From Frankiaceae bacterium (lineage in GTDB: Bacteria > Actinomycetota > Actinomycetes > JAFAQI01), in assembly GCA_025929365.1 (NCBI GenBank), contig JAICMG010000010.1, positions 1 to 37,264 on the forward strand: 37,264 bases of DNA, read 5' to 3'. Every line of letters begins with the position of its first letter. The first letter of the stretch is position 1. The notes under the pieces are model-generated. The model was not told the origin of the DNA, did no database searches, and saw only the letters and a program-made list of their open reading frames with translations. Both the position numbers and the translations under genes were made by a program. Below are positions 7,603-14,752 of this stretch, piece after piece.

Positions 7603-8448
7603 ATGACCGACGAGCTCGCCGACCGCCTCACCTGGTGGCAGCGCATGGCGCTTCGCAAGATGCGCCGCCAGGCGGGCCGACGGCCGGACGAGCCGCTGCA
7701 GCCCGAGGACTGGGAAGCGGTCTGGAACTTCACCCACACCAACGGCAAGGTCATGCAGCGGTTGTGGCTGTCACTGCCGAGCAGCCCGCGGTGCGGCGTG
7801 TGCAGCGCACCTTTTGCCGGCGCCGGCCGGCTGATCGCCGGCACGCTCGGCTACCGGCCGTCCCGCAAGAACCCGCACTTCTGCTCCACGTGCATCGAGA
7901 TGTCCCCGCCCGGGGGCGCAACGATGGTGATCGGCGTCTTGTTCGCCGACATCCGCGGCTTCACGGCCGCCTCGGAGGGCGCCGACCCGATCGAGCTGTC
8001 GAAGCTGCTGCGCCGCTTCTACGGGTGTGCGGAGTCGGCGTTGTTTCCCGAGGCCATCATCGACAAGCTGATCGGCGACGAGGTCATGGCGCTGTATCTG
8101 ACTCCGCTGCTTCCGGACGTCGACATCCCGGCCGTGATGCTGAGCCACGCGAACAAGCTGCTCACGTCGATCGGCTATGGCAGCTCGGACGGGCCGTTCG
8201 TGAACGTCGGCGTTGGCCTCGACTACGGCGAGGCGTTCGTCGGCAACATCGGCGACCGTGCGGTCTACGACTTCACCGCCATCGGGGACGTCGTGAACAC
8301 CGCCGCGCGGCTGCAAAGCCACGCGAAGTCGGGCGAGGTCATGGCGTCGAGCAGAGTCGTGACGGACGGCAAGACGGGCAAACGGGTGGAGCTGAAGCTC
8401 AAGGGCAAGCGGGAGCCGGAGGTGGCGTACCGCGTCGGTGCCGGCTAA
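7603..8448 (+). CDS. Class III adenylate/guanylate cyclase with N-terminal Cys cluster
   Basis: A 281-residue soluble protein 7 nt downstream of the dehydrogenase. The cyclase domain (about 105-278) has metal-binding Asp in VLFADIRGFTA and in KLIGDEVMALY, the substrate Lys in the latter, and TAIGDVVNTAARLQ with the transition-state Asn and Arg. Thr rather than Asp fills the second base-contact position, as in several mycobacterial adenylate cyclases. All catalytic residues appear present, so cAMP synthesis is likely. Upstream are two CxxC pairs (CGVC near 65, CSTC near 97) that could bind zinc or another metal and act as a sensor. Location within an acyl-CoA operon suggests metabolic signalling. 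Confidence 0.9.
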   Translation: MTDELADRLTWWQRMALRKMRRQAGRRPDEPLQPEDWEAVWNFTHTNGKVMQRLWLSLPSSPRCGVCSAPFAGAGRLIAGTLGYRPSRKNPHFCSTCIEMSPPGGATMVIGVLFADIRGFTAASEGADPIELSKLLRRFYGCAESALFPEAIIDKLIGDEVMALYLTPLLPDVDIPAVMLSHANKLLTSIGYGSSDGPFVNVGVGLDYGEAFVGNIGDRAVYDFTAIGDVVNTAARLQSHAKSGEVMASSRVVTDGKTGKRVELKLKGKREPEVAYRVGAG

Positions 8449-8463: not shown

Positions 8464-8556
8464 TCGAAGTAGCACACAAAGTCCCCTGTTCGCGTAACGG
8501 CTGATGCCACGAGGCACCGATGTCCGAATCGGCGGGAGCTTTGTGTGCTACTTCGA
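8464..8556. repeat. Long intergenic inverted repeat, element 1
   Basis: Perfect 18-bp arms lie at 8464-8481 (TCGAAGTAGCACACAAAG) and 8539-8556, extended by about 4 bp with one bulge. They surround a 57-nt interior that can itself fold (CCGAT/ATCGG and TGCC/GGCA hairpins). It sits between the cyclase stop and the crotonase gene. Next to the arm is CCCCTGTTCGCGTAACG, nearly the same as in the repeat at 11493-11562, so the two look related. It may act as terminator or attenuator, or be a REP-like non-autonomous element. Confidence 0.8.
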
Positions 8557-8584
8557 ACTGGGAGGGGCGTCGTACGCTGCGGCG

Positions 8585-9583
8585 GTGAACGAGGACGAGG
8601 ACGACCACGCTGCGCCCTGGTACGACGACGCCGACCTCGCCGCTGTGGCCGGCGAGCCTGCCGAGCCGCCGTCGTACCGGACCATGACCTACGAGGTGAC
8701 CGGGCGGATCGCGCGGATCACCTTCAACCGGCCCGAACAGGGCAACGCGATCACCTACGACACCCCGATCGAGCTCGCCGACGCGGTCGAGCGCGCGGAC
8801 CTCGACCCGCGGGTGCACGTGATCGTGGTGTCGGGGCGCGGCAAGGGGTTCTGCGGCGGCTACGACCTCGCGGCGTTCGCCGAACGGATGGACGAGACAA
8901 GCCGGGCCCCGTCGGCCCGGCGGTCGGGAACGGTGCTGGCCTCCGGCGTACAGATGGCCAACCACGACCCGAACGCCACGTGGGACCCGATGATCGACTA
9001 CGCGATGATGAGCCGCTTCAACCGCGGCTTCGCCTCGCTCCTTCACGCGAACAAGCCCACGGTCGCGAAGCTGCACGGGTTCTGCGTCGCTGGCGGGACG
9101 GACATCGCGCTGTACGCCGACCAGATCATCGCCGCCGACAACACGAAGATCGGTTACCCGCCGACCCGGGTGTGGGGCATTCCGGCCGCCGGCATGTGGG
9201 CGCATCGGCTCGGTGACCAGCGCGCCAAGCGGCTGCTGTTCACCGGCGACACGATCTCGGGAAAAGAAGCTGCAGAGTGGGGGCTGGCGATCGAGGCACC
9301 GTCACCGGAGCAGCTCGACGAGCGGACCGAGACCCTGCTGGAGCGAATCGCGCGGATGCCGATCAACCAGCTGATGATGGCGAAGCTCGCGTTGAACAGT
9401 GCGCTGCTGGCGCAAGGTGTCGCGACGTCGACGATGGTGTCGACCGTCTTCGACGGGGTCTCACGTCACTCGCGGGAGGGTTACTCGTTCCAGCAGCGCG
9501 CCGCGGCCGTCGGCTTCCGGCAAGCGGTCAAGGAGCGCGACGAACCGTACGGCGACCACGGCCCGTCTACCTTCAAAGGCTGA
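8585..9583 (+). CDS. Crotonase/enoyl-CoA hydratase-family protein
   Basis: A 332-residue crotonase-fold protein. The first oxyanion-hole segment is GRGKGFCGGYDL, the second HGFCVAGGTDIALYAD, followed by the family's IGYPPTRVWGIPAAGM and C-terminal helices. The two catalytic Glu residues of classical enoyl-CoA hydratase are not kept: Asp replaces the first (GGTD) and Pro the second (YPPT). Hydratase activity is therefore doubtful; an isomerase, hydrolase or other crotonase chemistry is possible. GTG 8585 is chosen because the longer ATG 8504 would lie inside the inverted repeat. GGAGGGG lies 17 nt upstream of GTG 8585, so the start is not settled. It may be transcribed apart from the cyclase because of the intervening repeat. 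Confidence 0.87.
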   Translation: MNEDEDDHAAPWYDDADLAAVAGEPAEPPSYRTMTYEVTGRIARITFNRPEQGNAITYDTPIELADAVERADLDPRVHVIVVSGRGKGFCGGYDLAAFAERMDETSRAPSARRSGTVLASGVQMANHDPNATWDPMIDYAMMSRFNRGFASLLHANKPTVAKLHGFCVAGGTDIALYADQIIAADNTKIGYPPTRVWGIPAAGMWAHRLGDQRAKRLLFTGDTISGKEAAEWGLAIEAPSPEQLDERTETLLERIARMPINQLMMAKLALNSALLAQGVATSTMVSTVFDGVSRHSREGYSFQQRAAAVGFRQAVKERDEPYGDHGPSTFKG

Positions 9584-10263: not shown

Positions 10264-10982
10264 CCACGAAGGTCGACGAGATCGCCCCGAGCATCTACCG
10301 GCTGTCCACGCTGGTGCCCGACATCGGGCCGAACGGCTTCACGTTCAACCAGTTCCTCGTTGTCGACGACGAGCCGCTGCTGTTCCACACGGGGCCGCGT
10401 GCGATGTTCCCCGCGGTGCGGGAGGCAATCGCGACGGTCGTGCCACCCGAGCGGCTGCGCTGGATCACATTCGGCCACGTCGAGGCAGACGAGTGCGGGT
10501 CGATGAACGAGTTCCTCGCCGTGGCTCCCAACGCGCAGGTCGCGCATGGCGCGACGGGCTGCCTGGTCTCGCTCAACGACATGGCCGATCGGCCGCCGCG
10601 GCCACTCGCCGACGGCGAGGTCATCGAGACCGGCGCCAAGCGCTTCCGGCACATCGACACCCCGCACGCGCCGCACGGCTGGGAGGCCCGCGTGCTCTTT
10701 GAGGAGACGACCGGCACCCTCTTCGCCGGGGACCTGTTCACCCACCTCGGTGACGGGCCTGCCCTCACCGACGCCGACATCCTCGGGCCGGCCGGACAGG
10801 CCGAGGACATCTTCCGGTTCAGCAGCCTCGCGCCGACGACACCGGCGACCGTCGAGCAGCTGGCCAAGCTCGCCCCCACGACGATGGCGCTCATGCACGG
10901 CTCGTCGTACAGCGGTGACTGCGCCGACGCGCTGACCATGCTCGCCGAGGACTACCGGCGTCGCATCGCGACAGCCGCCTGA
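10260..10982 (+). CDS. MBL-fold protein of the flavodiiron/ODP-like type
   Basis: A 240-residue metallo-beta-lactamase-fold protein. Instead of the hydrolase HxHxDH signature it carries H73-V-E75-A-D77-E78, close to the HxExDH motif of flavodiiron and oxygen-sensing ODP proteins. Further ligands are visible in HAPHGWE, LFAGDLF (Asp) and LMHGSSYSG (His). A di-iron site that binds or reduces O2 or NO is therefore possible; the last His of the motif is Glu. There is no flavodoxin domain. The start is the ATG overlapping the TetR stop; a longer open frame upstream lies inside the TetR gene. Confidence 0.87.
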   Translation: MTTKVDEIAPSIYRLSTLVPDIGPNGFTFNQFLVVDDEPLLFHTGPRAMFPAVREAIATVVPPERLRWITFGHVEADECGSMNEFLAVAPNAQVAHGATGCLVSLNDMADRPPRPLADGEVIETGAKRFRHIDTPHAPHGWEARVLFEETTGTLFAGDLFTHLGDGPALTDADILGPAGQAEDIFRFSSLAPTTPATVEQLAKLAPTTMALMHGSSYSGDCADALTMLAEDYRRRIATAA

Positions 10983-11492: not shown

Positions 11493-11562
11493 AGCAAAGT
11501 GGCTTTACCCCCCTGATTTCGCGTCACGACAGCGCAACTTACGGGGGTAAAGCCACTTTGCT
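11493..11562. repeat. Long intergenic inverted repeat, element 2
   Basis: Perfect 20-bp arms (AGCAAAGTGGCTTTACCCCC at 11493-11512 and its complement at 11543-11562) enclose a 30-nt loop. It fills the space between the SRPBCC stop (11484) and the end of the convergent peptidase gene (11573), so it can end both transcripts. The junction CCCCTGATTTCGCGTCACG closely matches the arm-loop junction of the repeat at 8464-8556. Confidence 0.85.
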
Positions 11563-13991: not shown

Positions 13992-14752
13992 TACCACCAC
14001 CAGGGGCTTTGTCCCGACGGCGCGCTCTGGCTGGGAGCGGTCTGCGTCGACGAGCCGTTCGGGTCGGGGATCGCGTACGCGGTCGGCGCCGGCGCCGGCT
14101 GGGGTGCCGCAGGCGCGGGTGCAGGCGCCGAGGCCGCGGGTTTGTGCGGGTGCTTGTGCTTCGGCTTCGTCACCACTGCCGCGGGCGTCACGCTCTTGTG
14201 CACGTGGCGGTGCAGCCCGCCGAGCCGGTGGCCGGCCAGCAGGCGCTTCGCGTAGTGGCGCCACTTCTTGTTGTGGCACGACGTGTAGTCGGTCCAGGTG
14301 GCCCCCTGCATGATCGCCATGCAGTCCGCGGAGTACTCGACACCTCGCTGGCCGGTGGCACCGCCACCGCCGAAGTGGCGGTTCAGCGACCGCACGATGC
14401 TCGGGAAGTCGCGGTGGTAGTCGTAAGCCTGCACCTCGTGGCTCCACTCGTGCGCCACGACGGAGTAGAGCAGGTTGGCCGGTGTGAAGGCCGAGATCCG
14501 GATCGTGTTGGTGTTCCAGTCAGTGGTGCCGTAGTGCCGCAACGACGTCGACACCTCCCAGTGCACAACGCCGGGAAAGTAGTGGGGCAGTCGGTTGACC
14601 GCCGACAGAACGCTGGCGTGATGCAGCGCGGTCGGGGTCAGCGACGGTGTCGCGGCGGCGCCGCCAGACGCGGCGGCGGTTGCCGCGGCGGCTGCCGCCG
14701 CGACGGCCGAGGCGACCGCGCCGACACGGACCCGGTGAGGCAGGCGGGACAT
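13988..14752 (-). CDS. Secreted HExxH metalloprotease-like protein with Pro-rich tail
   Basis: A 254-residue exported protein. After MSRLPHRVRVG comes an Ala-rich hydrophobic signal segment. The catalytic-type motif VAHEWSHEVQAYDY supplies HExxH, and GVEYSADCMAIM downstream offers a Glu/Asp third ligand, as in neutral zinc peptidases with ELQADC. Two Cys (DC near 165, SC near 180) could form a disulfide. The last ~85 residues are low-complexity, rich in His, Lys, Pro and Ala (KPKHKHPHKP), ending PWWWY. This may be a cell-wall-spanning or surface anchor segment. ATG 14752 has GGAGA 10 nt upstream; ATG 14785 is an alternative. The stop overlaps the thiolase stop. Confidence 0.8.
   Translation of the reverse strand: MSRLPHRVRVGAVASAVAAAAAAATAAASGGAAATPSLTPTALHHASVLSAVNRLPHYFPGVVHWEVSTSLRHYGTTDWNTNTIRISAFTPANLLYSVVAHEWSHEVQAYDYHRDFPSIVRSLNRHFGGGGATGQRGVEYSADCMAIMQGATWTDYTSCHNKKWRHYAKRLLAGHRLGGLHRHVHKSVTPAAVVTKPKHKHPHKPAASAPAPAPAAPQPAPAPTAYAIPDPNGSSTQTAPSQSAPSGQSPWWWY

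Follow-up and report, generated by a model that had tools for sequence, protein, structure and literature searches.

A solitary spaced palindrome in a Frankiaceae genome is probably a REP-like copy of a genus-specific mobile family that also brackets an AbiEi-DUF559 nuclease gene

The REP/RAYT systems, or REPtrons (PMC2817692, PMC3116915, PMC3733652), are the closest described counterparts of the palindromes dealt with here. A RAYT gene invariably lies between two REPs in inverted orientation (PMC2817692), and both systems exhibit a gene located between two palindromes, many solitary extragenic palindromes per genome, several enzyme-palindrome pairs within one genome and a palindrome sequence that tracks the enzyme. 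The present system differs, however, in its enzyme, which combines AbiEi-like parts with a DUF559/MTES_1575 nuclease domain and is unrelated to the HUH Y1 transposase; in having the arm CGAAGTAGCACACAA at both ends rather than a GTAG/GTRG head with a short, GC-rich REP palindrome of 20-40 bp directly behind it; in its bracketing copies, which are not always inverted; and in an interior of near-fixed length and variable sequence. The Y1 tyrosine transposase of the RAYT kind (PF01797) was found in none of 15 genomes, those of the window and its congener included, the control genomes being positive. The nuclease-palindrome system works like a REPtron, but is not classed as one. In the TIRYT/TIRtrons (PMC3733652), too, the longer terminal repeats of a transposase-like gene recur in dispersed form; their enzymes, however, are again tyrosine transposases, to which the present enzyme is unrelated, and the units that bracket the present gene are palindromes in their own right. 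As to the 3' ends of genes, Bradyrhizobium japonicum possesses dozens of dispersed spaced palindromes, GAATCCAT(N)23ATGGATTC, of unknown function (PMC5217627); these are similar in spacing and position, but belong to another taxon and have another sequence, and the portion of that source consulted reports no associated gene.

The element studied lies within the window, i.e. the whole stretch of 37,264 nucleotides analysed, which belongs to a 3.27-Mb draft genome (G000; completeness 92%); the sole congener available for comparison (G001; completeness 98%) is a draft assembly as well. Element 1 (8464..8556, no strand) possesses the perfect 18-bp inverted arms that had been claimed for it, at 8464-8481 and 8539-8556, with 57 nt between them; when the window was shuffled 40 times by dinucleotides, the longest arm (loop up to 60) was 14 bp, compared with the real 18 bp for element 1 and 20 bp for a second palindrome, element 2. 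The fold energy of element 1 is -52 kcal/mol for one strand and -51 kcal/mol for the other, and no match above the gathering score was obtained for it in an Rfam search. The conserved 15 bp of the arm, CGAAGTAGCACACAA, hereafter arm A, occupy positions 8465..8479 (+ strand) and, inverted, 8541..8555 (- strand), with the variable interior at 8480..8540; measured from AAGT to ACTT (8467-8553), the element is a solitary arm-A palindrome of the 87-bp class. It is preceded by a gene with an adenylate/guanylate cyclase domain (7603..8448, + strand; Pfam PF00211), the stop codon of which ends 15 nt 5' of the element, and followed by a gene for enoyl-CoA hydratase (8585..9583, + strand; Pfam PF00378). 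The GTG start of the latter (8585) and the GTCGTACGCT directly upstream of it are common to the window and the congener (locus L216), where the hydratase gene is found without the element and the cyclase gene does not adjoin, hence this site offers no clean empty-site comparison. A TACGCT (window 8573-8585) kept in the congener a few bases 5' of that GTG looks like a leaderless promoter that would begin directly after element 1.

Element 1 is one of many copies. A search of G000 with AAGTAGCACACAAAGT, allowing at most two mismatches, gave 15 forward and 14 reverse matches, nearly all of them forming inverted pairs, and the exact paired arm pattern was counted 15 times in G000 and 30 times in G001, whereas the 146 further genomes examined from the family, order and class had none; a reversed-pattern control gave no match. 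With one arm and at most one mismatch, about 50 arms per strand were found in G001, and nearly every perfect arm listed for that genome is matched by a partner at the usual short distance. No exact arm pair was found in viral contigs or in contigs of public genomes, although records near the window's genome may be absent from those collections. Altogether 68 distinct copies were collected, 18 from G000 and 50 from G001, these counts being partial where stretches were sampled, and arm-based searching would miss copies with badly decayed arms. The collection required at least one good arm; the partner arm, for which there was no selection, is nearly as intact.

The copies are 77-79 bp long (AAGT to ACTT) in 59 of the 68 cases and 87-88 bp in the remaining nine, with none between. 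Most positions of arm A are conserved to at least 97%, some variation being seen at positions 4, 12 and 13 (AAGT numbering), whereas the interiors, about 51-62 nt between the arms, are highly variable in sequence and weakly structured. The earlier note was accordingly right in proposing a dispersed, extragenic, REP-like family, but not in describing it by changing arms and a constant junction, since it is the arm that is near-invariant and the interior that changes. Nor is the interior as foldable as was claimed: the 68 interiors barely beat their shuffles (mean z -0.3 to -0.6), and clear excess pairing inward of the arms is limited to the next two base pairs. An interior hairpin serving as a terminator was rejected on account of the weak structure and the little pairing past these two base pairs. 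The interior of element 1 is most closely related to that of the copy at G000:C99:4536-4622, with 78% identity when 104 bp, arms included, are compared. In G001, near-identical interiors with different flanks occur in a pair on contig C30 and in a pair on contig C106, the latter 38 kb apart (loci L112 pair, L137/L138); the element has therefore been copied or converted between loci, and these pairs point to recent copying.

In both genomes, two arm-A palindromes bracket a nuclease gene (G000:C178 13630-14754; G001:C30). A third gene, G000:C2, bracketed by the related arm CACACAAACGTT, codes for the same kind of protein. The bracketed proteins consist of AbiEi_4/AbiEi_1-like winged-helix N-terminal parts and a C-terminal DUF559/MTES_1575 nuclease domain of the PD-(D/E)XK type, the curated cut-off not being passed by every domain in every protein. 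The bracketing copies of G001 (L151:9375-9451 and 10409-10485) share about 97% identity, while those of G000 (L206:13633-13710 and 14675-14752) differ from each other; the likeness of the former pair is presumably local homogenisation.

Concerning the class as a whole, a protein search revealed relatives of the AbiEi-DUF559 protein in 139 of 394 genomes. Of 52 nuclease genes, 41 have a homologous, usually palindromic, element on both sides at E<1e-3, the number falling to about 33 at E<1e-5; 11 genes show no bracketing at the sensitivity used. Among 150 control genes of similar size, eight were positive at E<1e-3, all of them weak and non-palindromic, and none below 1e-5; combining flanks from different loci gave 11/150, a figure inflated by real likeness among relatives. 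In an exact-arm test (k>=8), 19 of the 52 nuclease genes were positive as compared with 1/520 shuffles. The association of palindrome and nuclease thus holds in many lineages, some of which have their bracketing copies in direct and some in inverted orientation. The nuclease residues E228, Q246, D261, E272 and D274 (positions as in the open frame of L255) are retained by 49-52 of the 52 proteins, and no solved structure credibly resembles the nuclease by sequence. In the small 2-Mb genome G344, from another family, a nuclease gene (L280) is bracketed by 65-bp palindromes, TGGGTTAGTGTCTTCTG.., and the arrangement is therefore not limited to one family.

The tree of the 52 proteins shows that the palindrome arms track the protein clade and not the genome. 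The nuclease pairs L255/L256, L286/L287 and L301/L302 have arms that are common across G000 and G001 (AGCACACAA; ACACAAACGT; CGGTGATCTTGACGT), different nucleases within one genome having different arms, and two further nuclease arms also occur as solitary copies in these two genomes. In another clade, family f5, the nuclease gene is bracketed by the arm GAGCGTGCG; in the corresponding genus, dispersed GAGCGTGCG-N-CGCACGCTC pairs are present in 29 of 41 genomes, with up to 49 per genome, and these palindromes are also of near-constant length and variable interior.

The thrB-rho locus illustrates the history of one such unit. It carries one solitary palindrome in G001 and the succession palindrome-nuclease-palindrome in G000, the neighbouring genes on both sides being the same in the two genomes and the homology stopping at the palindromes. 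The nuclease unit of G001 is located elsewhere, beside an ABC-transporter gene, and the genome-wide arm list has no arm A near the matching place on the G000 contig. The unit has therefore moved or been lost, the palindromes being its boundaries.

Taken with the bracketing, element 1 is probably a solitary, non-coding, REP-like copy of a genus-specific mobile palindrome, whose cognate AbiEi-DUF559 nuclease gene is bracketed by the same palindrome. We infer that the nuclease drives the spreading. Its winged helix would bind the palindrome arms and its nuclease domain would nick or cut at the palindrome, after which repair or recombination would copy the unit to new sites and homogenise the interiors. 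The near-fixed spacing, together with the step of about one turn between the two length classes, suggests that both arms are recognised together. Solitary copies could be mobilised in trans, in the way that RAYTs mobilise REPs, or could be left behind, like solo LTRs, when the two bracketing palindromes recombine with each other, and the inserted copies would be tolerated, or kept, as hairpins at the 3' ends of genes.

It is this position that lends itself to a different explanation, namely that the palindromes are host 3'-end elements under selection (bidirectional terminators or protectors of mRNA 3' ends) and that the nuclease gene came to lie between two of them by chance. When gene ends were placed by a simple gene caller that relies on codon usage, the stop codon was no more than 70 bp away for 57 of the 58 copies that face the 3' end of a gene, and convergent junctions are enriched (27/64 copies vs 98/594 neighbouring pairs); in 25 of 64 copies the stop TAG is even inside the arm itself (CGAAG-TAG). 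Copies at orthologous places in both species, one beside a tRNA gene, which it follows in both, another between divergent genes, have kept both arms, their interiors being not or only poorly alignable, in spite of a near-saturated neutral divergence, with only 53.7% of fourfold-degenerate sites identical between G000 and G001. That several sites are shared with intact arms despite the 54% fourfold identity means that individual copies have long been resident and under selection, more than plain selfish spread would predict. The absence of copies from orthologous sites in relatives, a check proposed in the earlier note, applies to one convergent junction, empty in G000 and occupied in G001, but not to several other sites, which are occupied in both. 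No target-site duplication could be recognised in the single syntenic occupied/empty pair aligned, the flanks of which have diverged. Against the palindromes being host elements in the first place, however, a terminator needs no invariant 15-bp arm at near-fixed spacing; as for intrinsic-terminator features, the U-tract is absent, the stem ends with TTGTGTGCTACTTCG, the outer flank is G-rich and the interior is little structured; and the bracketing of 41/52 nuclease genes by clade-tracking arms is left unexplained. This explanation is thus regarded as unlikely, although termination or 3'-end protection may be a secondary use of the palindromes, and the retention of arms at old common sites suggests that some copies have come to serve the host at the 3' ends of genes.

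Still less probable is a role for the AbiEi-like protein as autoregulated repressor or defence nuclease, with the palindromes as its operators or as regulatory or self-DNA-marking binding sites. The AbiEi domains are DNA-binding antitoxin/regulator domains, the PADLOC AbiEi models match the bracketed protein, the AbiEi promoter contains inverted repeats to which the protein itself binds (PMC7319586), and spacing classes about one helical turn apart would suit such binding. Operators would, nevertheless, be expected at promoters, whereas the copies follow stop codons and the gene carries one at each end, not upstream alone, and the near-identical interiors at unlinked sites mean that the element itself has been copied. 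The protein shares the N-terminal winged-helix and AbiEi_1-like domains with the AbiEi antitoxin of type IV toxin-antitoxin systems, but differs from it by the C-terminal nuclease domain, and no adjacent gene for the partner toxin AbiEii was seen at the three A/A-prime nuclease loci inspected. Finally, it is very improbable that the palindromes are ordinary MITEs moved by an unfound DDE transposase, since, although they are similarly short, non-autonomous and dispersed, with inverted ends and lineage-specific bursts of amplification, nearly all the perfect G001 arms listed pair at the usual short spacing, no parental DDE transposon was found in the two draft genomes and no arm pair 1-3 kb apart around a transposase was seen, no target-site duplication was recognised in the one syntenic pair with diverged flanks, and all the genes that the arms were found to bracket encode AbiEi-DUF559 proteins.

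Beyond the mobile palindrome represented by element 1, it may be proposed with moderate confidence that Actinomycetes possess a large superfamily of palindromic mobile elements, not described before, with the AbiEi-DUF559 proteins as candidate mobilising enzymes. These would copy their own bracketing palindrome to gene 3' ends, and the system would parallel RAYT/REP without being homologous to it, each genome having many independent pairs of palindrome and nuclease. In the open literature, no paper was found that links DUF559 to repeats or mobility, and the proposal provides a first functional hypothesis for the common actinobacterial architecture AbiEi-like + DUF559/MTES_1575. It also suggests where the spaced palindromes near gene 3' ends that have lacked an explanation may come from. 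Should the palindromes indeed be moved by the nuclease, REP-like systems must have arisen on two or more occasions, with enzymes unrelated to each other; in that case, the orthologous copies, in which the arms have stayed constant while the interiors were replaced, amount to a natural experiment on selfish repeats becoming fixed parts of the host.

Element 2 (11493..11562, no strand), located between convergent genes, belongs to another arm family, with the arm GCAAAGTGGCTTTAC. This family has two copies in G000, the second at G000:C62:13403-13471, both 62 bp from AAGT to ACTT; no cognate nuclease gene was found for it, and the plasmids searched for element 2 yielded none. The likeness of its arm-loop junction to that of element 1, pointed out previously, is real (CCCCTG-TTCGCGTAACG vs CCCCTGATTTCGCGTCACG, i.e. 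one substitution and a 2-nt indel). In the genome-wide search, this junction motif was present at only these two places and therefore defines no family, while the arms of the element do recur, hence the outcome named in the earlier note as refuting applies to the motif but not to the element; a family based on the junction was accordingly discarded, with two copies only in the 3.27-Mb draft and a relaxed search dominated by chance.

Several other palindromes were observed in the course of the comparison. One with the arm AAGCAATGTGGCATTGC, resembling the arm of element 2 (AGCAA-GTGGC), occurs in three genera, at L051:990-1062 (G000), L155 and L158 (G002) and L165 (G003). Long near-perfect hairpins with the arm TTGTGAAGxCCT, unrelated to arm A, are found in two genera, at L128:17741-17792 and L131:5652-5703 (G001) and at L172:15947-15988 (G003). 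Clusters of CCAGCAACG(C/G)..CGTTGCTGG repeats are present in G001 at L131:14419-14504 and L139:1432-1517.
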